From contig NC_019904.1 in the NCBI RefSeq assembly GCF_000325705.1, positions 3,350,001-3,414,000 of the forward strand: 64,000 nt of DNA, in the 5' to 3' direction. Made by a program: the position numbers and the translations under genes. This document shows, one piece after another, positions 28,730 through 42,782 of this stretch; within the stretch, counting starts at the first letter, position 1, and every line of letters begins with the position of its first letter. The notes under the pieces were generated by a model that saw nothing but the letters and a program-made list of their open reading frames with translations, had not been told where the DNA came from and did no database searches. This stretch comes from Echinicola vietnamensis DSM 17526. GTDB taxonomy: Bacteria; Bacteroidota; Bacteroidia; Cytophagales; Cyclobacteriaceae.

Positions 28730-30004
28730 CTATCCCACCACCACCTCGATGATATTGCCTGAGTCGAAGTATTTTTGACCTGCTTCCATGACCTGGTCGG
28801 GAGTGAAGTTCCTGAAAAATGTTAGCTGCTCTTCGTAGAAATCATAATCCAGTCCAGCGTAGTGAATGGCTTTATATCGATTGATCAGGTCAAAGGCATT
28901 GCTGAAACTGGACAGGAAATGGCCCGCCATGAAATTTCGGACAATCTCCAGCTCCTCTGGACAAACGGGGATGGTTTTTAATTTTTCTATTTCAGCATAG
29001 ACTTCATGGATTACTTCATCAGCATAGCCTTTTTGGACATCAGCCATAACCACCCAGTAATCGGATTTTTCGAGGCTGCCGATCGAACTGTAAATGCCGT
29101 AGGTATAGCCTTTGTCTTCACGGATGTTTTTGATGAGTCGACTGCCAAAATAGCCACCCAAGATCGTATTGAAAACGGTTAAAGCATGATAATCCGGATG
29201 GGTTTTGGGGATCAGGTGCTGCCCTAAGCGGATACTGGACTGGACTGCCTTTTCCTTCACCTCGGAAAGTCGCTTTTCCGGCCAGACACTGAATTCATTA
29301 GGTTTTAGGAGGCTGTCCTGGATGAAGAGGTCTCCAAAAGCTTCCATGATGCGGGAAATTTCCAGTTCGTTTAGGTTTCCGATGACGAATAATTCTGGGC
29401 TGACCAGGAATTTTTCTTGGTAATAATTCGCTAATTTTTCTCTGGTAACGGCGTTTACATGTCGTTCTTCGGAAATAAAACCAAAAGGATGATCAGTGCC
29501 AAATAGTGCTTTTCTGTAAAGCTGGTTTGCCCGTGCACCGTTTTGTTCCTGCTGCATAGTAATGGTCAGCGCTTTTTGGGACTTTCGCTTTTCCAGTTCC
29601 TTTTCAGGGAATACAGCATCTGTCAGCAAAGACCTAAACACCGGTAAAACGCTCAGAAAATGTTTTTTGGTGGTCAACAGCGAAACACCTTGCTGTTCGA
29701 AGGTAGAGATGGTGTCCACTTCAGAAGCATAATGATCGAAGAAATTATCCAATTCTGGAGAATTCATATCCTTGGTACCTTCCAAAAGCATGTTTAGCGT
29801 AAAAAAGGGCACCAAGCCATCTTCTTCAGGTAACAGCTGTCTGTTGGATTCCGTGACAATTTCCAGTTTGATCGCATCGATTTCCGGTGTGGGGATAAAA
29901 TATAACGGGATGCCGTTTTTTAGTGTCCGCTTGATAGGTTTGGTCAATGCTATCGTTTCCGGAATCTTAAATTCCGGCGCTATGGAGCGATCCAATACTG
30001 TCAT
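28730..30004 (-). CDS. M16-family protein lacking the zinc-binding motif
   Basis: A 424-residue single M16 (insulinase/pitrilysin) unit. Where active members carry HxxEH, this one reads GLVPFFTLNMLLEGT (residues about 63-77), so the zinc site is missing. It keeps the C-terminal-domain block NIREDKGYTYG, the substrate-binding R/Y pair of the partner subunit in two-chain M16B proteases. It is therefore probably the non-catalytic half of a heterodimer whose HxxEH partner lies outside the window. No signal peptide is evident. The ATG overlaps the porV stop (TAATG), so it is coupled to the type IX secretion genes, and a processing or chaperone role there is conceivable. Confidence 0.88.
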   Translation of the reverse strand: MTVLDRSIAPEFKIPETIALTKPIKRTLKNGIPLYFIPTPEIDAIKLEIVTESNRQLLPEEDGLVPFFTLNMLLEGTKDMNSPELDNFFDHYASEVDTISTFEQQGVSLLTTKKHFLSVLPVFRSLLTDAVFPEKELEKRKSQKALTITMQQEQNGARANQLYRKALFGTDHPFGFISEERHVNAVTREKLANYYQEKFLVSPELFVIGNLNELEISRIMEAFGDLFIQDSLLKPNEFSVWPEKRLSEVKEKAVQSSIRLGQHLIPKTHPDYHALTVFNTILGGYFGSRLIKNIREDKGYTYGIYSSIGSLEKSDYWVVMADVQKGYADEVIHEVYAEIEKLKTIPVCPEELEIVRNFMAGHFLSSFSNAFDLINRYKAIHYAGLDYDFYEEQLTFFRNFTPDQVMEAGQKYFDSGNIIEVVVG

Positions 30005-31221
30005 TACTTCGGGATATTATAAGCCAGAGAGAATCTTAATGTCTCAGCCAACGGGTGATTTTGCTTTTGGGGAACCAAGTAGGAGAAGTCAAAGCCTAAG
30101 CGCTTAAGGTCAAATCCTACGCCCATGGTGAAATATTGTCTTCCGCCTTTATGCTTGTTTTCATAGAAATAGCCTGTTCTCAAGGCAAACTTTTCCGCGT
30201 ATTCGTACTCCACACCAAAGGAGATCATCAGTTCCTGCATTTCTTCACTGAAGCCATCAGGGGCATCGGCAAAGGAGCCGAACATGGCGCTGAGGAGTTG
30301 GCGATCAGGGTCTTTACCACCATTTTCAGCGATTTCGGGTTTCCCATCAGGACCAATGATGAGCGAACCATCTTCATTGGTAGCATAGATCGGAGGGGTG
30401 GGGACCATTAACTTATTCAGGTCAAGGGCGAAAGTCAGGGTGTTGTTTTCATCAAGGGCTGTTTCGAGCGCGGTTCCTATCCGTAGGTTGGTAGGGATAT
30501 AGTCGGCATCGTCAGAACTGTTATAGGTCAATTTTGGACCGATATTGCTGATATTGGCACCCCAAGACCAGTAGGCTTCCTTGTTGCTGAGGAGGATTTC
30601 TTTGCGTTGGTAAACGCCTACATCCACGCCTACGCTGATGCCGGGTTTGCTGTCTCCGTTTCCATTAGAGGAAATGTTTCCTGCGATATTGGAATGGATG
30701 AACCTGGCGGATATGCCCAGGGAAAGGGTCTCGGATAATTTTCTCGAATAATTGGTTCCAATGGCGATGTCCCGTGGATTAAACTGTCCAATATCCTGTC
30801 CAAACTGGTCGGTCAGCTGGATATCACCCATGTTAAAATAGCGCAAATCTATTCCGAAAGTGGACATGTCATCGATGCGCATATAACCGGTCAGATAGCT
30901 TAAGGACATATCGGGAACCAGTTTCCCGAGCCAAGGGGAATAGGATAGGGCAAATCCCATTTCATCTTCCGCGAAAGCCAGTTTGGCCGCATTCCAGTGG
31001 ATCGAATTGGCATCAGGCGTGGTGGCCACACCGGCATCTCCCATGGCCGAATGTCTACTGTCAGGAGCAAAATTAAGAAAAGGCACTGCTGTGATGATGA
31101 CCCTGCGTCCTTGGTCTTGACCAGAAACACGCACGGAATTTTGGGCTTTCGCCGAAAAAGCAGTAATCGAAAGTACAGTTAAAAAAGTAAGCGCCTTTAA
31201 ATAATCACTTGATTTCTTCAT
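30004..31221 (-). CDS. porV: Type IX secretion outer-membrane protein PorV
   Basis: A 405-residue outer-membrane beta-barrel of the PorV (LptO) family. After a signal peptide (about 1-26, ending AKA) the text VPFLNFAPDSRHSAMGDAGVA (near residues 45-65) and NSIHWNAAKLAF are the family hallmark; FadL-like barrel strands follow. PorV shuttles type IX secretion cargo from the translocon to the sortase PorU and de-acylates or binds LPS-bound cargo complexes. I chose ATG at 31221 because it overlaps the porU TGA (ATGA) and begins a proper signal peptide; an upstream in-frame start would give 40 charged, non-signal residues. Confidence 0.94.
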   Translation of the reverse strand: MKKSSDYLKALTFLTVLSITAFSAKAQNSVRVSGQDQGRRVIITAVPFLNFAPDSRHSAMGDAGVATTPDANSIHWNAAKLAFAEDEMGFALSYSPWLGKLVPDMSLSYLTGYMRIDDMSTFGIDLRYFNMGDIQLTDQFGQDIGQFNPRDIAIGTNYSRKLSETLSLGISARFIHSNIAGNISSNGNGDSKPGISVGVDVGVYQRKEILLSNKEAYWSWGANISNIGPKLTYNSSDDADYIPTNLRIGTALETALDENNTLTFALDLNKLMVPTPPIYATNEDGSLIIGPDGKPEIAENGGKDPDRQLLSAMFGSFADAPDGFSEEMQELMISFGVEYEYAEKFALRTGYFYENKHKGGRQYFTMGVGFDLKRLGFDFSYLVPQKQNHPLAETLRFSLAYNIPK

Positions 31222-34200
31222 TGAATATTTATTTTTCCTATTGCCTGGTCCGAGGTTCCGTCTCTTTCGCTTGTTAGCTGTAATTCGTAAATATAAGTTC
31301 CTTTTGCGGGAATTTTTGTCATGTCTCTTAAAAAAATCCATTCAAGATCAGGGATTTCAGTACTTGCTTTTGGATAACGTTTTTCCGTTGAATATATTTT
31401 CTTTCCAAGCAAATTATAAATCGTCAAGTACAAAATTATATTTTCATTAGGTCGATTATGTTTTATCTTGAAATAACTGATATCATTTGTAGGATTTGGA
31501 TAATTAATAATTTCCTCAATCTTAATGTTTTCACTTCCGCTGACCTTAATTTTTAATGTCTGGGTGCTGGCATTGCCTGCATGATCATAGGCGGTTAATT
31601 CAAGCGTGTTGATTCCTTCTTCCAGTCCACCAATAGGCATTTCGATGATACCTTGCTGGTAGTTACCATGGATCGTGCGGTAATAGTTGTCCAATACAAT
31701 AGGGGAGTTTCCGTTTACCTTCAGCATGATTCCCTGTCCGTTTTCCGAAGTCGTTTGGATGCCACTTTCATCCTTTAGGGACGCGATAAAGGTGATTTGT
31801 GTAGAGGAGACAGTGGTAGGGGATTGGATGGTGTCATTGGCAAACAGCCTGATCGATGGCCCTTCACGGTCATCGGGAGCTGAAAAAGTGCCTTCTTCAA
31901 GCGAAATGGCCTGGGCATTTATCGCTTCGAATGTACTGGATTCCGAACTTGCAAAAATCCTTATAATGCCATCTGATGGTCGGCCCAATGTGTCCTGTCC
32001 AACGAAGATCTCTGCCGTGAACTGGCCATTGGTGATGTTTCCACTGCCACGGTAGCGGATGTTGTTCAGTTCTTGGAAGGTACTTGCAGGGCCTTCATCT
32101 CCATTGGTTTTTACCGTGATCGGTTCGCCTAGTATTTCCAATAGAAAAGTGCCATCAAAATTATGCATAGGCAGCCCGGTGAGCGGATCCCGGACGGTTC
32201 CTGTGATCCTTGTGGGTTGGTGGGAGTAAAGGGTGTCTATTGCTGTTCCTTTTGCCGATGATACGGTCAAGTCAATGCTTAATTCTGGCCTGGCCAAACG
32301 AAGGCTGGGATCCCCTAAGAGGGAAAAGTTCCTGTTGTATGGGCCATTTAGGCTGTTGTTTTTGGTGGCCTTGAAAATATCCCCCAACTGCAATCCCTGA
32401 CCTTCGTCGTTTTCCTGAAATGCCGAAATGAAGGCCTTGTTCAGGGAAAAGTTAATACTGCTAAACACAGGTCGGCCCGTAGTAAGCAGTGCAATGGCGC
32501 CTTTGTTTTTGGCGATCAGCAGTTCTTCTGCTCCTGATCGGAGATATGGGCTGTCGTGACGGCCAAATTCACAAGTAGCGGTAACGATCAGCGGAAAATG
32601 TTGGGTTTCTGGCCAGTTTTGTAGGTCCTGTACTTGAAAGATCCTTTCCGCCGCAAGGGTGTTATCATTGCCATGACCTATGTAATTGATGAGCAATGCT
32701 CCGTCTTCCATGCTTTCTGCCAATGCCGCCTTTGCTTCCGGTGCGGTTTGGAAACTTCCCTCTGCTACCTGTTTGAATGCATCCAGATACAGCTTCTGCA
32801 CGTCATAGAATGGGCTGCTTTGATAAAGGGAAGCGGTGTGCGTTTCACTGTGGTCAAGGTGGACGTTGTAGTCTCCGTCATCGGCAACAAAAAGTAATTT
32901 TCGTTTCCATTTGCCTAGCTGGAGGGAGTGGGTTTCGTACTGGATGATCTTTTCCACGACGTTTCTAGCCTCCTGTGTGTTGGTCACGGGAAGTCGCCCC
33001 ACGCCGATGGCAAGCGGCAGGTCGCCTGCTTCGGATTCGGCCCATTGGCCCTGCCCAAATTCCAAAAAACCAAAATAATCATCCGAACCAAAAGAAGTCA
33101 GGGGATGAAGGCTGTTCCTGCTGCTGTATGTGGGGACGAGGTTTGGGTGACCAGGGCTGATATGTTTATAGTCAAACGTCCCTTTTCCAAAAAGCAGTAC
33201 ATGCTGAAGGGTTTGGTGGCGGTGATATTGGTCGGCTAGGAAATTGCGGATGGCTGTAACATCCCTGGTGCCGTAATTATAGGCGTCATATATTTCTTGG
33301 GGCGTTACCACTGCCGTACTTATTCCGATACTGCGCTTAAAATCCGCCAGCTTATTGGCTTGGAAGCGAAGGGAGGGAGAGGTGATGACCACCAGTTCAG
33401 CAGGATTGATTTGACGGATGTTTTGGCTTATGCTTTGGAGTCCATGGATTTTAGGGGCCTTCATTGGATCGGCGATGGCCAAGCGTTGGTACGGCCGCAG
33501 ATGCACGGTTCCTGCTGAGGTAGAGAGCTTTTCTGGCCGGTCAGACTGAGTGACATCCCAGTAAAGCAGGTGCTTTTTGGCGTCCAATGAAATGGGCTGT
33601 TCGTGGTTGAGGTTCATATAAATCCCCTCTTCCACATTAGCCGCTAGATGAGGCAGTCCCAGTAGAAAATAATCCAAGAAACCTACCGCATTTGGGTCAC
33701 TGCTTTTTAGCTCGAGGTTAAACTGGGTGGGATTTCCCACGTCAACATGTCCTGTAAAACCAGATATGTGCTTTTCCCGCCCTTTTAGGCCATAAGTGGA
33801 TGAAGGGATGGCAGAAATCACCGTGGAGAAAAACTCCTGTTGTCGACTCCTGATGCGCAAGGTCGCCTCACTGGTGGATTGGGCCAAAAGATTGGCATGA
33901 TAGTAAATGGGCCCTTGATCGTATGGATCCACTTGCATGTTAAAAGAGGCAATTCCTCCAGCCCGAACCCTGTTTCCATACCACTTTCTTCCCGAAGAAA
34001 GCAAATTGATTGTTTCTTTCTTATAGGCGTAAAGGGCATAAAGCATGGCCTGTTCTGTAGTGAAGGTAGGGGCATCAGCTGGGGCAGGCAATTCAGACGA
34101 CAGCCTTTTGGGAGCAGTAACATGGGTTTTGACAAGGTAATAAGCCGTATCAGTGTAGGAATGGTGGCGGTAATGGAGGCTGTCTCCTTCCGTCTTTATT

Positions 34201-34502
34201 TGGTGCGGACCTTCCAAGTAAACCAAAAGCTTCCCGTCCAGCAGCAGGGAAGGCAGTTCTTGGAGATGGAGCGATTCTTCCTCCAATTTTTGCGGTAACA
34301 TGCCACTAGCACCATAAATGGCAATATTTTCCAACCGGGCATCCTTTAACTGCGGTAATTCTGCAAGGGATAGTTGATAGATGCCTGCTTTGGTGATGGG
34401 GAATTTAAAGTAGGAGGTTTGGCCAAAAACAAAAGGGACTGTTACGAACCATGTCAAACAGATTAAAGAAATGCTTCTCAGTATTTTCGCAAATGGTTTC
34501 AT
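31218..34502 (-). CDS. porU: Type IX secretion sortase PorU
   Basis: A 1094-residue surface sortase of the gingipain-like C25 cysteine peptidase family. A signal peptide (1-27, ending VFG) is followed by a beta-rich N-terminal domain and the C25 domain (about 370-720). The catalytic His610 is in YIGHGND and Cys644 in TATCEFGRHD. The C-terminus is a beta-sandwich targeting domain with INYPNPTND and ends in a KGTYIYELQL strand, like a type IX CTD. PorU cleaves CTDs from cargo and attaches cargo to anionic LPS. The ATG at 34502 overlaps the pssA stop (ATGA), and porV overlaps its own stop, so all three are coupled. Confidence 0.95.
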   Translation of the reverse strand: MKPFAKILRSISLICLTWFVTVPFVFGQTSYFKFPITKAGIYQLSLAELPQLKDARLENIAIYGASGMLPQKLEEESLHLQELPSLLLDGKLLVYLEGPHQIKTEGDSLHYRHHSYTDTAYYLVKTHVTAPKRLSSELPAPADAPTFTTEQAMLYALYAYKKETINLLSSGRKWYGNRVRAGGIASFNMQVDPYDQGPIYYHANLLAQSTSEATLRIRSRQQEFFSTVISAIPSSTYGLKGREKHISGFTGHVDVGNPTQFNLELKSSDPNAVGFLDYFLLGLPHLAANVEEGIYMNLNHEQPISLDAKKHLLYWDVTQSDRPEKLSTSAGTVHLRPYQRLAIADPMKAPKIHGLQSISQNIRQINPAELVVITSPSLRFQANKLADFKRSIGISTAVVTPQEIYDAYNYGTRDVTAIRNFLADQYHRHQTLQHVLLFGKGTFDYKHISPGHPNLVPTYSSRNSLHPLTSFGSDDYFGFLEFGQGQWAESEAGDLPLAIGVGRLPVTNTQEARNVVEKIIQYETHSLQLGKWKRKLLFVADDGDYNVHLDHSETHTASLYQSSPFYDVQKLYLDAFKQVAEGSFQTAPEAKAALAESMEDGALLINYIGHGNDNTLAAERIFQVQDLQNWPETQHFPLIVTATCEFGRHDSPYLRSGAEELLIAKNKGAIALLTTGRPVFSSINFSLNKAFISAFQENDEGQGLQLGDIFKATKNNSLNGPYNRNFSLLGDPSLRLARPELSIDLTVSSAKGTAIDTLYSHQPTRITGTVRDPLTGLPMHNFDGTFLLEILGEPITVKTNGDEGPASTFQELNNIRYRGSGNITNGQFTAEIFVGQDTLGRPSDGIIRIFASSESSTFEAINAQAISLEEGTFSAPDDREGPSIRLFANDTIQSPTTVSSTQITFIASLKDESGIQTTSENGQGIMLKVNGNSPIVLDNYYRTIHGNYQQGIIEMPIGGLEEGINTLELTAYDHAGNASTQTLKIKVSGSENIKIEEIINYPNPTNDISYFKIKHNRPNENIILYLTIYNLLGKKIYSTEKRYPKASTEIPDLEWIFLRDMTKIPAKGTYIYELQLTSERDGTSDQAIGKINIQ

Positions 34503-35191
34503 GCGGGGTGCAGCCTGCTCTCCACCAAAGAAAGCAAAATATAGCTGAGGATGATAAAGGGTACACCGGCCAATCCCAGCCATAACACACTTATGGCTCC
34601 GATGGCAATCACCAAGTATCGAAACACATTGTCTCCAAAGCTCAAATTTTTGAATTTCAGGGCGATAAGCGGGAGTTCTGCTGTCAGGAGGAACGCCAAG
34701 ACCACCGTCAGCGAGAGCAGGAAATAACGGTTTTGGATCATGCTGCCTGCCCAGGCAAAATGTTCGGCAAGAAACGGCAGGGTGCAGATCAAGAGGGCAT
34801 TTGCAGGAGTGGGAACGCCGATAAAGCGGTCTGACTGCCGCGTATCGATGTTGAACTTTGCTAGCCGCATGGCTGACTGAATGCCGATAATAAAAGCAAA
34901 GAAGGGGAGGTACCCATCAGGAAAAGGGACTTTCAATAATTGAAAGAGCACAAAGGACGGGAGCACCCCAAAGGTCACCAGGTCTGCCAAGGAATCCAGT
35001 TGCTTCCCGATTTCACTGTGCACCTTCAGAAGCCTGGCCACCATGCCGTCCAAAAAATCAAAAACAGCAGCGATCAGAATGAAATAGGTCGCCGCAAAGA
35101 GGTTGCCCTGAAGTACGAAGTATATCCCCGCCATGCCACTGGCAAGGTTCATACAGGTAATGGTGTTGGGGATGTGTTTTTTGATCTTCAA
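34499..35191 (-). CDS. pssA: CDP-diacylglycerol-serine O-phosphatidyltransferase
   Basis: A 230-residue integral membrane enzyme of the CDP-alcohol phosphotransferase family. The full signature DG-x2-AR-x8-G-x3-D-x3-D is present with Asp48, Gly49, Ala52, Arg53, Gly62, Asp66 and Asp70. The N-terminal NTITCMNLASGMAGI is characteristic of PssA. It makes phosphatidylserine, the precursor of phosphatidylethanolamine. About seven TM segments are visible. The start overlaps the upstream metallo-hydrolase stop by 4 nt and its stop overlaps porU, giving an unusual link between phospholipid synthesis and type IX secretion. Confidence 0.94.
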   Translation of the reverse strand: MKIKKHIPNTITCMNLASGMAGIYFVLQGNLFAATYFILIAAVFDFLDGMVARLLKVHSEIGKQLDSLADLVTFGVLPSFVLFQLLKVPFPDGYLPFFAFIIGIQSAMRLAKFNIDTRQSDRFIGVPTPANALLICTLPFLAEHFAWAGSMIQNRYFLLSLTVVLAFLLTAELPLIALKFKNLSFGDNVFRYLVIAIGAISVLWLGLAGVPFIILSYILLSLVESRLHPA

Positions 35192-35841
35192 AATTGAGCG
35201 TTTTTACCTACGAATGGATTGTGGATCTTTTCATGCCCAATCAGGGTGGCCGGTCCATGTCCAGGATGGACTTTTACATCATCCGGAAGGGTGAAAAGCT
35301 TCGCTTTAATGGCATCAAGTAGGGTTTGATGGTCTCCACCGGGCAGATCTGTGCGACCAATACTCCCTTGAAACAAGGTGTCGCCACCGATACAGGTTTT
35401 ACTTTCGGGATGGTAAAATACCACATGCCCCGGGGCGTGTCCCGGCACCCAGATGACTTCCAAGTCTGTCTCACCAAAGGTGACCTTATCCCCTTCTTCT
35501 AAATATTTTTCAGCCTTACATGGTGTATAGGCAGGGAATCCATAATTGGAAGCATAGGAACCAACAGCCATCAGCACGGGCTCATCCTTAGGGTGGATTT
35601 CAAGGGGCAAGCCATAGTTTTGGTTAATGAAAAAATTACCCAAAACATGATCAATATGACAATGGGTATTGAGTAACCGCACAGGACGAAGGTCATTGGA
35701 TTGGAGGAACTGCTTTAATGTTTCTTGTTCTTCTTTAGCATAACAACCAGGGTCGATGATTACCGCTTCTTTGGTATCATCATACAGAACATAGCAGTTT
35801 TCTTGAAAAGGATTGAACGTGAAAGTTTGTACATTAAGCAT
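35188..35841 (-). CDS. MBL-fold metallo-hydrolase (glyoxalase II-like)
   Basis: A 217-residue metallo-beta-lactamase-fold hydrolase. The dinuclear metal motif HxHxDH is THCHIDH (His60, His62, Asp64, His65). Later ligands are in VPGHAPGHVVFY and the C-terminal VHPGHGPAT. The compact size and the FNPFQENCYVLYDD start match the YcbL/glyoxalase II-like group that hydrolyses thioesters such as S-lactoylglutathione. It is cytoplasmic. I chose ATG at 35841, which begins at the conserved start; a possible upstream start adds 12 residues. It heads the overlapping operon with pssA, porU, porV and the M16 gene. Confidence 0.9.
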   Translation of the reverse strand: MLNVQTFTFNPFQENCYVLYDDTKEAVIIDPGCYAKEEQETLKQFLQSNDLRPVRLLNTHCHIDHVLGNFFINQNYGLPLEIHPKDEPVLMAVGSYASNYGFPAYTPCKAEKYLEEGDKVTFGETDLEVIWVPGHAPGHVVFYHPESKTCIGGDTLFQGSIGRTDLPGGDHQTLLDAIKAKLFTLPDDVKVHPGHGPATLIGHEKIHNPFVGKNAQF

Positions 35842-35898
35842 TATCGAAACATTTGTGAATTCATGCCAAAATAACAAAGAAAGAAATTAATTTTGGGT

Positions 35899-36951
35899 AT
35901 GGAAGTAGATTTTTTACTCATTGGACAGGGCATTGCAGGTACGGTTTTGTCCTATCGGTTGATTAAGTCAGGGAAGTCTGTTTTGGTGATCGATCAGGCA
36001 GCGGCAAACAACAGCAGTAGGGTAGCCGCTGGACTGTTTAACCCCATTACGGGGCGCAAAATGGTCAAAACCTGGCAGGCGGATCGTCTCTTTCCTGTCA
36101 TAAAGCCCCTTTATGGTGAATTGGAAAGGTTACTGGAAAAGAAATTAATCTACGATAAAAACATCTATCGGCCTTTTTTCAGTATTGAGGAACAAAATGA
36201 ATGGATGGGAAAGAGTTGTGATGCCGAAGTACAGGATTACCTGGAAGCAGTCAGGACACAGCCATTGTGTGAAGAAGTTGCCGATCCCTATGGAGGCATC
36301 ATGCTCAAGAATTCCGGCTATTTGGACATCAATACACTGCTCGACGGGTATAGCAGCTGGTTGGCTGATAACGGTCAGTTAAAAAGAGACCATTTTGATG
36401 AAGGCATGTTGGAGCATCGTGAGGGGAAGTGGCATTATCAAGGGACAAAAGCTTCAGCAATCGTTTTTTGCAGTGGTCTGGGGGCAGCAAAAAGTTCGTA
36501 CTTTGATTGGTTGCCTTTTGCGCCGGTAAAGGGAGAGATCCTGGAGATGGAAAGTGATTTTACGCCTGCAGAAATCATCAATAGAGGAGTTTTTAGGATC
36601 ACCATGCCTGATGGACGGATCCGAGTAGGGTCCACCTACAGTTGGCATGATTTGGACCAAGGACCTACCGAACGGGGCAAGGAGGAGATATTGGAGCGAC
36701 TGGAGAAGATCGTGCCCGGCCAAGCCGGAAAATTGTTGAGCCATCGAGTGGGAATTCGGCCTGCTACTAAGGACCGAAAACCATTTTTGGGAAAACATCC
36801 TGCTGCTGAAAGCGTTTATATCTTCAATGGATTTGGTGCGAAAGGCGTTTCTTTAGTACCTTATTACAGTAAGATCATGCTCGGGTTAATGTTGGAAGGT
36901 AGCGAACCTGAAAAAGATGTTAACATAAGTCGATTTTTTAAGTATATTTAA
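35899..36951 (+). CDS. FAD-dependent oxidoreductase, DAO/MnmC-like
   Basis: A 350-residue flavoprotein of the DAO fold. The N-terminal dinucleotide motif is LLIGQGIAGTVLSYRL, followed by VLVID. SSRVAAGLFNPITGRK resembles the substrate loop of glycine oxidase and the MnmC C-terminal domain. A C-terminal FNGFGAKGVSLVPYYS closes the FAD site. I chose the ATG at 35899; a TTG two codons upstream is less likely. It probably oxidises an amine or amino-acid-like substrate, and a tRNA-modification role as in MnmC is possible but not shown. It is divergent from the metallo-hydrolase operon, and the large barrel-fusion gene follows by 23 bp. Confidence 0.82.
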   Translation: MEVDFLLIGQGIAGTVLSYRLIKSGKSVLVIDQAAANNSSRVAAGLFNPITGRKMVKTWQADRLFPVIKPLYGELERLLEKKLIYDKNIYRPFFSIEEQNEWMGKSCDAEVQDYLEAVRTQPLCEEVADPYGGIMLKNSGYLDINTLLDGYSSWLADNGQLKRDHFDEGMLEHREGKWHYQGTKASAIVFCSGLGAAKSSYFDWLPFAPVKGEILEMESDFTPAEIINRGVFRITMPDGRIRVGSTYSWHDLDQGPTERGKEEILERLEKIVPGQAGKLLSHRVGIRPATKDRKPFLGKHPAAESVYIFNGFGAKGVSLVPYYSKIMLGLMLEGSEPEKDVNISRFFKYI

Positions 36952-36974: not shown

Positions 36975-39900
36975 ATGAAGGTAAAATTAGTTTTTATTTA
37001 TTTTACACTACTCTGGCTAGGTTCCTATACTGTCTCCAACGCCCAATTTGACCAAGAACGTTTTGGCAAGAACAGAATACAGCACCACGAATTTGATTGG
37101 TATTTTTTTTCGTCCAATAATTTCGAGGTGTACTATTATGGAGGAGGTCGGGACAATGCCCGGATGGCCATAGATTATTTGGAAAATGAATTTGAGCGGA
37201 TCACGCAGATGATCGGTTACGTCGCTTACACTAAACCAAAAATTTTCATATACAACAGTCGCGAGGAATGGCTTGAGAGTAACCTTGACCTAGAAGAGGA
37301 AAGCTATTCTGTCAATGGAGAAACCTTTTTTTCCAAGTTGATGGCCGAAGTGCCCTATACGGGTGACTGGGCATCTTTTAAGGAAGAATTATTGTACCGC
37401 ACATCCAAGGTGATCATCGAGGAGATGCTGTATGGTAGCACCATCGCGGATGCTTTTCAGTCCAACCTGATCAACAGCTTTCCGGAATGGTTTATCGATG
37501 GAACAGCGCTTTATCTGGCCAAGGGCTGGAGTTTGGAAATGGATGACTACGTGAGGCATTACCTCAAAGGAAATGAAAACCCCAAACTTCATAAGCTTAA
37601 TGAAAGGGAAGCAGCACTTGTCGGACAGTCTATTTGGAATTTTATTGTGCAAAAGTATGGGAAGCGATACGTTTCCAGTATCCTGAACCTAAGCCGGATC
37701 AATAGAAATGAAGAGAACAGTATTTCCAATACCTTGGGAGTAGGGTATAAAAGTTTTGCTGAGCAGTGGCGCGCCTATTACACGATGGTGAATGAGCCTG
37801 TTTTTTCGACATTTAAAGAACCTTCTACGGAAAATGTCATTGCCGCCACCAAGAAAAATGAAGATGGATCGATCAATGACATAAAGTTCAGCCCCGATGC
37901 AGAACATTTGGCTTATGTAATTAATAATAACGGTAAATTTAAAGTAATCGTCCGGAACCTTTCTTCCAACAATGAAGTGACGGTCTTTAAGGGAGGAACT
38001 TCCACCGATGACCAAGAGCCTAACTTTACCTCTCCGGTAATCGCCTGGCGTGACACCTTGAACCTGACCATTGCCACGTTTAAGCGAGGCCTGACTACCT
38101 TGCGAATGAGAAGTATTGATGGTAGCAGTCAGGATAAAATTTTTCTTCGAAACATCACTCAGATCAATAGCTTGGACTTTTCTCCAAATGGCAAAAACAT
38201 GGTGTTGTCGGCCATGGCTGGAGGTAGGACCAATATCTACACGTTAAACCTAAGAGGCAGGGGCAGAAGGCTGACCAACGACGTCTTTGACGATATTACG
38301 CCTGTTTTTGTTAACGATTCGACCATCGTGTACGCTTCTAACCACACAGCCTTGCCAGATAGTGTGCTGACCCGTGCCCCGGATGTGCGGGAGTTGCCGG
38401 ATTATTTTAACTTGTATAAACTGGAATTAGGAGACAGTTTGGTGACCACCAAGCTGACCAACATGAATTCCAAGAATTTCATGCCACGTCCGATGAATCA
38501 GAATTTCGTGCTTCACCTCAGCGACCAAAGTGGAATTTATAACCTTATGCGATATGGGCTGGGCAGTGAAGTTTCGAGCCAAGTTTCAGCCTTTAATACT
38601 AGCGTGGAGGCATTTGATTTTTCACCGATCATAAACAAATGGGCTTATGCATATAAGGATGGAACAGGTAGTAAATTGGTCCTGGAATCCTATCCCAATA
38701 TCGATCAGTTTACGCCCGGAACTCCACGTATACAGCTAAATCAAGCCAAAAAGTTGAATGAGCGATTGGCAGAACGAAGATTGGAAAAGCAGCAAGAGGA
38801 AGAGACCGAGGAGAAAGAGGTAGAAGTTCCTAGGCGATTGGCACCTGAAGTAGAAGAACCGTTGACGATTGATTCCATCCCACCATCCTCCAATAATACT
38901 GGCGCCATTAATGTGGACCGTTTGCGGTTTGAGCACCACTCGGGCATCAACACGGAAAATTATAGTTTTGATACTGTGCCGACGCCAATAGAACAGCGGG
39001 AAGGCAGACTGGCTTCGGGGAAAAGTGATATTTTGGAGGCCTTTAGAAAGCAAAGTTTGAAAAATACGGTGAGGGGACCGAGGGACTATATGCCCCAAGT
39101 TCAGGCGAACAGTTTGCGAACGACCTTTGTAGTGGATCCTTTGAGAGGTTTTGGCCTAAACATCGAAGGGAAGATGACCGAGCTTTTAAACAATCATGTT
39201 TTCCAAGGCGGCATTATGACACCGCTGGATTTTAGGTCTGGAAGTGACGTTTATTTTGAGTATCAATACCTCAAAAGCAGGATCGACTATCGGGCTCGCT
39301 TTGACAGGAGGGCGTTGGTGATTTCGGAAGGGGACGTTACTTACCAACGCTATGTGCTTACGAAAGGAGAACTAGGGTTTTCCTATCCGTTTACAGAGCA
39401 CACCAGGTTTACGGTTGCCCCTTTCTATGCCAAAACCCAATATTTTAACCTTAACCCCGACTCGTTGGTCTTGGGAAGTGAAGGTCCTCAAAATCGATTT
39501 GACGTAAATTATTTAGGAGGAAAAGCCGAGTTGGTGGTGGATAAGACCAGACTACTGGGGCTTCATATGGAGCAAGGCTTTAAGGGTAAGGTAGGGATTA
39601 AGCATTACCAAGGGATTGATGAAGGAGACCGGTCTTTCAGTAATGTTTACCTGGACTTGAGAAATTACCAGAAGATCCATAAGAACATCACGTTTGCGAC
39701 CAAGCTCTTTGCGGGATCCTTTATGGGAAATAATCCCCAAAGTTATCTGGTGGGTGGTATGAAGAACTGGTTGTTCAATGAATTTTATGAACCACCATCC
39801 AATCGACCGGAGCCTTCGCCCGTAAGGAATAGAGATGGTGTGGAGAATTCCAATATTCTCTTCGCAGAGTTTGTGGACCTGAGAGGATATGATTATGATG

Positions 39901-40277
39901 AAATCCGAGGAAGGAATGTGGTGACTTTTTCCGCAGAGCTTAGAATTCCGTTATTTTCTTACTTGTCCCGTGGAAACATAGCCTCTAATTTCGTCAAGAA
40001 CTTTCAGCTCGTAGGTTTCTATGATGCAGGGTCATCTTGGGATGATGCTGCTCCTTGGGAACGTGTCAATGACCAGAATACCGAGGTCATCAATACCGAT
40101 GGTTCTCCTTTTAACATTACCCTCAATAACTTCAATAACCCGTGGCTACAAAGTTATGGTGCTGGACTTAGGACAGTATTGCTGAACTATTATGTGAAGT
40201 TTGATACGGCGTGGCCAATACGTAATTACGAAGTAGGTGACCCGAGGTTTTATGTCACCTTGGGATATAATTTCTAA
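36975..40277 (+). CDS. Zincin-like / TolB propeller / Omp85-like barrel fusion protein
   Basis: An 1100-residue outer-membrane protein with three parts after a signal peptide (1-23, ending SNA). Residues 40-275 resemble a peptidase-MA-like zincin, with FPEWFIDGTALYLAKG at 169-184, but the expected HExxH helix reads VIIEEMLYG, so zinc ligands are lost. Residues 290-580 hold WD40/PD40-like TolB propeller repeats (IKFSPDAEHLAYV, DFSPNGKNMV). After a Glu-rich linker (about 600-640), residues 720-1100 form a barrel with the Omp85 loop motif LRGY (969-972), AELRIPL and GFYDAGSSW, ending in Phe1100 as a BAM signal. Such proteins are usually annotated as TolB-like. The role is unknown; scaffold, assembly or secretion in the outer membrane is possible. 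Confidence 0.8.
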   Translation: MKVKLVFIYFTLLWLGSYTVSNAQFDQERFGKNRIQHHEFDWYFFSSNNFEVYYYGGGRDNARMAIDYLENEFERITQMIGYVAYTKPKIFIYNSREEWLESNLDLEEESYSVNGETFFSKLMAEVPYTGDWASFKEELLYRTSKVIIEEMLYGSTIADAFQSNLINSFPEWFIDGTALYLAKGWSLEMDDYVRHYLKGNENPKLHKLNEREAALVGQSIWNFIVQKYGKRYVSSILNLSRINRNEENSISNTLGVGYKSFAEQWRAYYTMVNEPVFSTFKEPSTENVIAATKKNEDGSINDIKFSPDAEHLAYVINNNGKFKVIVRNLSSNNEVTVFKGGTSTDDQEPNFTSPVIAWRDTLNLTIATFKRGLTTLRMRSIDGSSQDKIFLRNITQINSLDFSPNGKNMVLSAMAGGRTNIYTLNLRGRGRRLTNDVFDDITPVFVNDSTIVYASNHTALPDSVLTRAPDVRELPDYFNLYKLELGDSLVTTKLTNMNSKNFMPRPMNQNFVLHLSDQSGIYNLMRYGLGSEVSSQVSAFNTSVEAFDFSPIINKWAYAYKDGTGSKLVLESYPNIDQFTPGTPRIQLNQAKKLNERLAERRLEKQQEEETEEKEVEVPRRLAPEVEEPLTIDSIPPSSNNTGAINVDRLRFEHHSGINTENYSFDTVPTPIEQREGRLASGKSDILEAFRKQSLKNTVRGPRDYMPQVQANSLRTTFVVDPLRGFGLNIEGKMTELLNNHVFQGGIMTPLDFRSGSDVYFEYQYLKSRIDYRARFDRRALVISEGDVTYQRYVLTKGELGFSYPFTEHTRFTVAPFYAKTQYFNLNPDSLVLGSEGPQNRFDVNYLGGKAELVVDKTRLLGLHMEQGFKGKVGIKHYQGIDEGDRSFSNVYLDLRNYQKIHKNITFATKLFAGSFMGNNPQSYLVGGMKNWLFNEFYEPPSNRPEPSPVRNRDGVENSNILFAEFVDLRGYDYDEIRGRNVVTFSAELRIPLFSYLSRGNIASNFVKNFQLVGFYDAGSSWDDAAPWERVNDQNTEVINTDGSPFNITLNNFNNPWLQSYGAGLRTVLLNYYVKFDTAWPIRNYEVGDPRFYVTLGYNF

Positions 40278-40300: not shown

Positions 40301-41182
40301 ATGATTAAATCCATGACCGGCTATGGTGTAGCCAATTTTGAAAATGACCGCTATATTATCAGCGCGGAAATCAAGACGTTAAATTCCAAGTTTTTGGACT
40401 TTAACCTTCGCAGTCCCCGACAGTTTTCTGATCGAGAGATAGAAATCAGGGGGCTGGTGTCAGGTGTTTTGGAGAGGGGCAAAGTAAATCTCAACATTGA
40501 ATTTACGGCCAAGTCCAGCACAAACCTTCCTGTGAGCATCAACCAGGAACTTTTTGAAACGTATTTTGACACCTACCAATCCATGGCCTCAAAAGTGGGC
40601 GTGAGCGACAGCAATGACTTGTTCCGGATGGCTATCCAAGCCCCGAATGTGGTTACCACCCTAACGGACAAATCCGATGATCAAGAAGAGTGGGATGCGG
40701 TAAAAAAGGTCGTGATGGAAGCTGCCCAAAAGTGCGATGACTTCCGTAAAGACGAAGGTGAAACCCTTTATCATAAGTTTAAGGAAAACTTGGACGTCAT
40801 CACCAAAGGCCTGGATGAGATCCAAAAGGAAGAGCCCAATAGAAAAGAACGGATCAAGAACCGGATCAGAAACAACTTCAAGGATTGGATGGAGGAAAAT
40901 TCCTTTGATGAAAATCGCTTTGAGCAGGAACTGATCTATTATTTTGAGAAGTTGGATATTACAGAAGAGATCGTCAGGCTATCCACGCACCTCAAATACT
41001 TCGATAAGACCATGTCGGCGCCTAACAGCCAAGGAAAGAAACTTGGGTTTATCAGTCAGGAGATTGGCAGGGAAATTAATACCATCGGTTCCAAGGCCAA
41101 TGATGCGGCGATCCAGCGGCACGTGATCATCATGAAGGATGAGTTGGAGAAGATCAAAGAACAGGCACTGAATATTATTTAG
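40301..41182 (+). CDS. yicC: YicC/YloC family endoribonuclease
   Basis: A 293-residue protein matching the YicC family across its length. The start MIKSMTGYGVANFEND is diagnostic, SAEIKTLNSKFLDFNLRSPR follows, and the C-terminal DUF1732 domain contains KLGFISQEIGREINTIGSKAND. E. coli YicC is an Mn-dependent endoribonuclease involved in RNA turnover (RyhB decay). It is cytoplasmic. The gene lies 23 bp after the barrel-fusion gene and may share its transcript. A 7-bp hairpin with a large loop lies just beyond its stop. Confidence 0.95.
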   Translation: MIKSMTGYGVANFENDRYIISAEIKTLNSKFLDFNLRSPRQFSDREIEIRGLVSGVLERGKVNLNIEFTAKSSTNLPVSINQELFETYFDTYQSMASKVGVSDSNDLFRMAIQAPNVVTTLTDKSDDQEEWDAVKKVVMEAAQKCDDFRKDEGETLYHKFKENLDVITKGLDEIQKEEPNRKERIKNRIRNNFKDWMEENSFDENRFEQELIYYFEKLDITEEIVRLSTHLKYFDKTMSAPNSQGKKLGFISQEIGREINTIGSKANDAAIQRHVIIMKDELEKIKEQALNII

Positions 41183-42113: not shown

Positions 42114-42782
42114 GGAATGGTGAGAGGGAGAAATGGGATCAAGCCATATTTCTGGGGGACGAGGAATGTCAGACCAAGCCGATGGATTGTGGAGTGGAGA
42201 AAAAGTCTCCTTCAGAGGATTTAGGGGGAATTCCTCTCTTTACCTTTGTTACTATTTTCCTGCAGGTGAAAAAAGTAACCAAAAAACCCCGCTGCTGTGA
42301 GCGATTTCGGCTAAACCCAAAGACCTTACCGCGCGCAGGCGAACTCCTCCGTATGAGCTGCCGATTGGCCTTTTGCGCATCATCCCGTCAGGCCTGCCTA
42401 CCGCAGGCAGGCATGCCTGCGCCTTTTGCCAGCCCGCTTCTTTGGTTTCTTCACGCCGAAATCCCTCAAGGCAGAAAAAAAGCTGAAATCGATAAAAGCG
42501 GGGCGGCTGGCTAGCGGGCGGAAGCTTTGCCATGTTTTGATTTCCTCCTGCGGCGGACAGGTTTTCGTTCTTTTATATCAAGAAAAAGGACAAGGAAGTC
42601 CCGTTGGCATCTGCTGTCGTCCGGTGATGGGGTGAGCGGAAAGTCCCCTTTAGGGGGGTAAGAGTAAAGGCACCAATTGATAATCATTCAAAATTCTTCA
42701 TTTGTCATTCTTAATCCTCCCTCCCCATCCGACCAAGCTTTCCTCCAGCTTTTCCGCTTGATCCGGGAAATGACCGGTTTGG
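42114..42782. repeat. 669-bp intergenic mosaic of inverted repeats
   Basis: No gene is supported here; open frames of 93 and 110 codons overlap on opposite strands and have no family features. The block is rich in inverted repeats: GTTACTATTTTC/GAAAAAAGTAAC arms (42248-42279) around a CCTGCAGG palindrome; GCCTGCCT/AGGCAGGC (42392-42412); a perfect 14-bp palindrome GCAGGCATGCCTGC (42407-42420); and CCCCT/AGGGG (42645-42656). A related degenerate GGATTTAGGGGGAATTCC sequence lies near 42217-42234. Composition is more GC-rich than the flanks. It looks like a dispersed REP-like repeat cluster of the kind found between genes in Cytophagales, but copies elsewhere cannot be checked here. Confidence 0.6.

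Follow-up and report, generated by a model that had tools for sequence, protein, structure and literature searches.

A conserved Bacteroidia protein joins a zincin-like domain without catalytic residues to a TolB-like propeller and a predicted Omp85-type barrel

In a 64,000-nucleotide window of the Echinicola vietnamensis DSM 17526 genome (contig NC_019904.1, positions 3,350,001 to 3,414,000), we analysed the gene at window positions 36975..40277 on the forward strand, whose product is called P0001 here. Homology and a predicted structure show that P0001 carries a zincin-like domain, a TolB-like propeller and an Omp85 barrel in one chain. Sequence comparisons and the model together predict an outer-membrane protein that is widespread in Bacteroidia (hereafter the class; genomes, rows and relatives from outside it, such as Rhodothermales, are called outer), and the class form of its zincin-like domain has lost its catalytic residues while staying under strong constraint. 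We rate this architecture far above the TamB-related function discussed below. The open reading frame (ORF) is uninterrupted from the ATG at 36975 to the stop at 40277 and encodes 1100 amino acids with the following parts, all in window coordinates:

36975..40277 (+): whole gene, pseudo-zincin, TolB-like propeller and Omp85 barrel (ORF, homology, structure model)
36975..37046 (+): putative Sec-type signal peptide at the N-terminus, about residues 1-24 (inspection; helix 2-17 in the model)
37092..37814 (+): peptidase-MA-like (gluzincin-fold) domain without catalytic residues, about residues 40-280 (homology to PF13485 region 72-274 of the relative P0121; model; conservation)
37395..37409 (+): HExxH-equivalent position, residues 141-145, YRTSK (alignments)
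37413..37427 (+): IIEEM, residues 147-151; helix 132-153 holds both it and the true site, which comes first (alignments, model)
37497..37499 (+): residue D175 at the position of the third zinc ligand; outer relatives have E (alignments)
37836..38699 (+): TolB-like beta-propeller, about residues 288-575 (partial TIGR02800, PDB match, model)
38712..39086 (+): helical linker, mostly modelled at low confidence, about residues 580-704 (predicted local distance difference test below 50 at 614-683; least conserved part)
39087..40274 (+): 16-strand Omp85-type barrel with terminal Phe, about residues 705-1100 (model; PF01103 in relatives)
39879..39890 (+): L6 motif LRGY, residues 969-972 (alignments, model)

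An initial annotation had read an Omp85-type barrel from LRGY, AELRIPL, FYDAGSSW and a terminal Phe, and all of these are present in P0001. The predicted structure agrees with that reading, with 16 barrel strands spanning residues 710-1099 and LRGY placed between strands 11 and 12, which corresponds to L6. Moreover, L969-R970-G971 is invariant in 120/120 aligned rows, which count the window protein, with 97 Y and 23 F at position 972. The proposed comparison with the Omp85/Bac_surface_Ag profile succeeded through relatives, as P0121 matches PF01103 at 6e-10 and exceeds the curated cut-offs of the families for all domains; P0001 itself stayed below the cut-off and is absent from the nine genome matches of the profile search. 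No unrelated porin family was matched. The propeller that had been proposed upstream of the barrel also stands, on the basis of a partial match to TIGR02800 (TolB; 8e-11, 41.5 bits over 97 of its 418 positions; an NCBI TolB equivalog would need 343.15), a match to TolB at 6e-7 in a PDB sequence search, and the model, whose strand list suggests six blades. With a TolB-like propeller N-terminal to an Omp85 barrel, P0001 has the architecture of a WD40-Omp85 protein. POTRA domains gave no model match in Pfam scans of P0001 and P0121, without a profile search for short POTRA-like pieces, and the predicted structure has other folds there. Residues 1-40 contain no Cys and so lack a TamL-type lipoprotein signal.

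Relatives link the N-terminal domain to peptidase MA: positions 32-333 of the profile built from near relatives match the P0121 genome locus (E 2.4e-38), and P0121 in turn matches PF13485 (1.6e-14, region 72-274). The comparison with peptidase-MA profiles was thus positive via relatives and negative in P0001 itself, where Pfam detected no such domain. For the active site, we aligned P0001 with one protein for each of 70 fetched loci and dropped L001, the window gene, which gave 70 counted rows (28 class, 42 outer). The HExxH motif had first been placed at IIEEM, a register off by six residues; the alignments rule this out and put it at YRTSK. At these positions outer relatives mostly read HHELVHAV...WF.EGLAEY, whereas P0001 has YRTSK at HExxH and D175 at the third ligand, which supports the suspicion that the zincin-like domain is dead.

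This loss is common to orthologues, as we found in three comparisons. First, HExxH occurs in 0/28 class rows and the third-ligand E in 4/28, whereas 41/42 outer rows have both. Second, in another alignment HExxH was present in 42/42 rows of relatives versus 0/61 rows of the protein's own group and the Spirosoma group. Third, N-terminal stretches from 20 further class genomes (20 families, one of which, f10, was already represented) had HExxH in 0/20. In a midpoint-rooted FastTree phylogeny of zincin plus propeller, class rows and outer rows formed two clades. The sole outer exception (L129, genome G341, family f48) has RExxR, apparently a separate loss of catalysis. For zincin, propeller and barrel, mean column identities were respectively 0.80, 0.74 and 0.82 within the own group; the Spirosoma group gave 0.87, 0.72 and 0.78, and rows with an intact motif 0.77, 0.70 and 0.73. 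Judged by these sequences, the class-form zincin has no catalytic residues yet is under strong constraint.

The family is large. P0001, which has a single match in its own 5.6 Mb genome, has 571 homologues at E<=0.001, of which the best 120 are listed; among these the nearest named relatives are Echinicola proteins with 80-84% identity. At 80 named loci the match covers most or all of the 1100 residues with 83-59% identity. The near-relative profile matched 253 of 395 phylum genomes at E<=0.001, and a class-wide profile matched 258 of 295 class genomes at E<=1e-6, 234 of them below 1e-50 by a hand count of the listed values; weaker matches of the latter profile may be other propeller proteins. 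Since at most two candidates were scored per genome in both searches, absences are not firm. One large family, f7 (guessed to be Flavobacteriaceae), gave no match where listed with the near-relative profile and, where listed with the class-wide profile, none or borderline ones. As first suspected, database names conceal the barrel: many records call homologues "biopolymer transporter Tol" or hypothetical. NCBI records already name intact-motif forms "BamA/TamA family outer membrane protein" or "peptidase MA family metallohydrolase". In precomputed annotation, PF26549 and PF26550 are assigned to P0001, and PF26549 to most homologues listed; the family may have been given these curated Pfam models only recently.

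We then considered the gene order around the P0001 family gene (the target) in outer genomes, in a non-random sample of 20 and then 40 more genomes, taken from the near-relative profile search for family spread and including nine extra of family f24. TamB, RNase R and the target lie on one strand in 11/20 genomes of the first set and 22/40 of the second, the latter identified by tblastn with first-set proteins as queries, that is in 33/60 genomes and nine families. This total counts as unlinked one locus (L186) that was unreadable because the ORF filter retained an antisense frame. In the second set, L214 and L226 have TamB nearby in another orientation and L219 has RNase R only. Pfam scans identified RNB in both RNase R proteins and PF04357 in three of five TamB proteins tested; for the other two, L171 gave nothing and L184 AsmA, and a genome search gave PF04357 at both places. 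Protein scan and genome search combined place PF04357 at TamB in 11/11 linked first-set genomes. In a midpoint-rooted FastTree phylogeny of 63 TamB sequences, the unlinked TamB of E. vietnamensis groups with class TamBs in a clade of 14 (support 0.91), and the target-linked outer TamBs are on several deep branches with no single clade. Together with the absence of linkage in the class, this tree suggests that the TamB-RNase R-target order may be old and may have been lost in the class.

Other Omp85 frames were seen in these searches. In seven genomes (G191, G227, G274, G384, G171, G042 and G380) a second TamB, besides the one at the target, lies 3.3-3.5 kb from another Omp85 match, a 640-713 aa frame long enough for POTRA domains. 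Additional Omp85-barrel frames of 1240-1376 aa with unassigned N-terminal parts occur at G191:C1:267043, G030:C1:3566466, G231:C1:3611662 and G340:C3:126886.

Our best overall explanation, which we hold with confidence and doubt in equal measure, is that of a barrel-anchored protein acting in outer-membrane biogenesis with TamB, the class form being a docking pseudo-enzyme. P0001 would be a Sec substrate whose C-terminal 16-strand Omp85 barrel anchors it in the outer membrane, and its propeller and peptidase-MA-fold domain would most likely be periplasmic, where BamA and TamA have POTRA domains. In outer groups such as Rhodothermales, the form that retains HExxH...E would be a metalloprotease tethered to the barrel. 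Its gene follows that of TamB in many outer genomes, so it most likely worked alongside TamB in the biogenesis or quality control of the outer membrane. The class form, since it lost the catalytic residues but kept strong constraint, would most likely be a binding module that docks, with the propeller, a client or partner at the Omp85 barrel. An extended version, which we put forward as a tentative and probably too ambitious idea, is that a third type of TamB-associated Omp85 machine, one that dispenses with POTRA, exists in Bacteroidota and related groups: barrel, BamB/TolB-like propeller and periplasmic metalloprotease would bring the functions of BAM, BamB and BepA into one chain, with the class pseudo-enzyme retained as docking module.

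Several observations weigh against this explanation. P0001 itself is below the Pfam cut-offs for all three domains, with PD40 as a sub-threshold match when scanned alone. The zincin fold, which was searched as part of the whole protein, matched no solved structure: BamA, TamA, TolB and further propellers make up most of the Foldseek and VIA lists for P0001, and with the A3 profile a sequence search of the PDB yielded for the most part TolB and other propellers, one POTRA protein (Fusobacterium BamA) and no zincin. The TamB linkage is uneven (15/15 in family f24 versus 18/45 elsewhere) and is found in 0/20 target-bearing class genomes, whose TamB lies on a different contig from the target or more than 0.9 Mb away from it. 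TamB is also present in genomes without a listed target match: PF04357 was detected in 40/40 class genomes, 20 with and 20 without the target in the near-relative search, so that co-occurrence lends no support. The class-wide profile finds the target in at least three of those 20 "without" genomes (G002, G080, G138), with G057 borderline. In Flavobacterium johnsoniae, the known partner of TamB is TamL, according to the parts of PMC12045153 consulted, and two Omp85 frames (775 and 806 aa) in the E. vietnamensis genome resemble lipoproteins and are TamL-like by inspection, the first of them lying beside a TamB. Finally, RNase R and the neighbours YicC and DAO are cytosolic, and gene order alone therefore need not imply shared function. 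Because TamL is the shown partner in F. johnsoniae, TamB occurs without the target and the gene group includes a cytosolic RNase, we consider the chances of a TamB-related function to be about even.

Among the alternatives, P0001 could be an accessory or alternative outer-membrane protein insertase, in effect a BamA-BamB fusion, with a TamB neighbourhood that is inherited gene order without functional meaning. We regard this as possible but unlikely, given the linkage across the outer sample, the lack of a POTRA match by Pfam and the presence in these genomes of other Omp85 frames of BamA and TamA length. Less probable still, the zincin and propeller might reach the cell surface, either by self-secretion as in PlpD or as the surface-facing part of an assembly complex. 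PlpD is described as an Omp85 barrel bringing its enzyme domain to the surface (PMC4104836, in part), BamI is a six-bladed propeller outside the membrane in the Bacteroidota BAM (PMC12578637, in part), and the predicted linker, at about 120 residues, could pass through the barrel. However, TolB propellers are periplasmic according to the same account of PlpD, the TamB linkage in outer groups argues otherwise, and loss of catalysis in the class leaves no enzyme to display. A Tol-Pal-like tether from the outer membrane to the cell wall, in which the propeller would bind a Pal-like partner in the manner of TolB, seems very improbable, as an Omp85 barrel would in our judgement be an unusual tether anchor. 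A chance fusion or assembly artefact is rejected by the hundreds of homologues, the 80 near-full-length loci and the matches in 258/295 class genomes.

The idea that a propeller plus a dead zincin is a different periplasmic part on an Omp85-type pore held in that both domains were found; a propeller replacing POTRA was already known from the WD40-Omp85 proteins of Heinz and Lithgow (2014), likened to a BamA-BamB fusion (PMC4104836). P0001 shares with them the POTRA-less Omp85 barrel and the TolB-like N-terminal propeller, but the main-text parts of that paper compared here, supplementary tables excluded, mention no zincin domain, catalysis loss or TamB linkage, and their "Metallo" class is PF00149, not PF13485. 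That the periplasmic part acts as an adaptor setting the client is something we infer. With BamA and BamB, P0001 has in common a 16-strand barrel, an L6 RGF/Y motif and a propeller partner, but it has no detected POTRA, its TolB-like propeller is fused in the same chain and a zincin domain is added. The resemblance to TamA or TamL with TamB is an Omp85 barrel gene beside TamB in many outer genomes; P0001 differs by having no POTRA match and no N-terminal cysteine, by TamL-like frames in the same genome and by the unlinked class TamB. The Bacteroidota BAM with BamI, from the same phylum, also has a six-bladed propeller working with an Omp85 barrel, but BamI is described as a separate surface-side subunit (PMC12578637), whereas the propeller of P0001 is fused to its own barrel.

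As for the zincin-like domain, BepA, an M48 metalloprotease acting at BAM, resembles the HExxH relatives only, as a zinc-metalloprotease at an Omp85 barrel; in the accounts consulted in part it belongs to another peptidase family and is unfused to the barrel, and P0001 has no catalytic residues. The peptidase MA superfamily has the homologous domain, complete with HExxH...E in nearly all outer rows, unlike the class form. PlpD, a patatin-Omp85, also carries an enzyme-like non-POTRA domain, but P0001 has a three-part architecture and no sign of secretion. A literature search that left out supplements and most subscription papers, and covered others in part, found no study of the P0001 family and no paper uniting Omp85 with a zincin or peptidase MA domain; the part of PMC3482391 covered, which excludes its Omp85 mention, contains no such union.

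The surroundings of the gene are conserved as well, the closest neighbours being:

35188..35877 (-): MBL (metallo-beta-lactamase)-fold hydrolase, divergent upstream of the P0001 gene, conserved neighbour in the class
35893..36951 (+): FAD-dependent oxidoreductase (DAO), 23 bp upstream of the P0001 gene, conserved neighbour in the order
40301..41182 (+): YicC-type endoribonuclease, 23 bp downstream of the P0001 gene, conserved neighbour in the family

In 80 near-relative loci (Cyclobacteriaceae or named as near kin, some ending early), DAO, MBL and YicC are each in place in 80/80; YicC starts 3.24-3.55 kb past the target start in all of them, and a narrower adjacency count gives 73. MBL is divergent upstream in 9/11 class loci from outside the order (L160-L170). 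On the opposite strand, some 2.4 kb upstream, the type IX secretion system genes at 30004-34583 (-) encode the sortase PorU (1059 bits against a cut-off of 420) and PorV (506 bits against 250), which are found in 75/80 and 73/80 of the near-relative loci, respectively. A 110-aa ORF at 42182-42514 (+) has no Pfam or NCBIfam match and no match in the 80 loci; the thymidylate synthase gene beside it is kept in just three.

Taken together, our data reveal a protein found in 258/295 sampled class genomes, yet often named "biopolymer transporter Tol" or hypothetical. The family is also a natural experiment: the protease motif on the Omp85 barrel is intact in one clade and missing from the same protein in the other. 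The frequent position of the intact-motif relatives beside TamB is a hint that they help to build the outer membrane, and makes the family a further candidate partner for TamB, whose roles in the phylum are, from the parts of PMC12045153 consulted, still being worked out.
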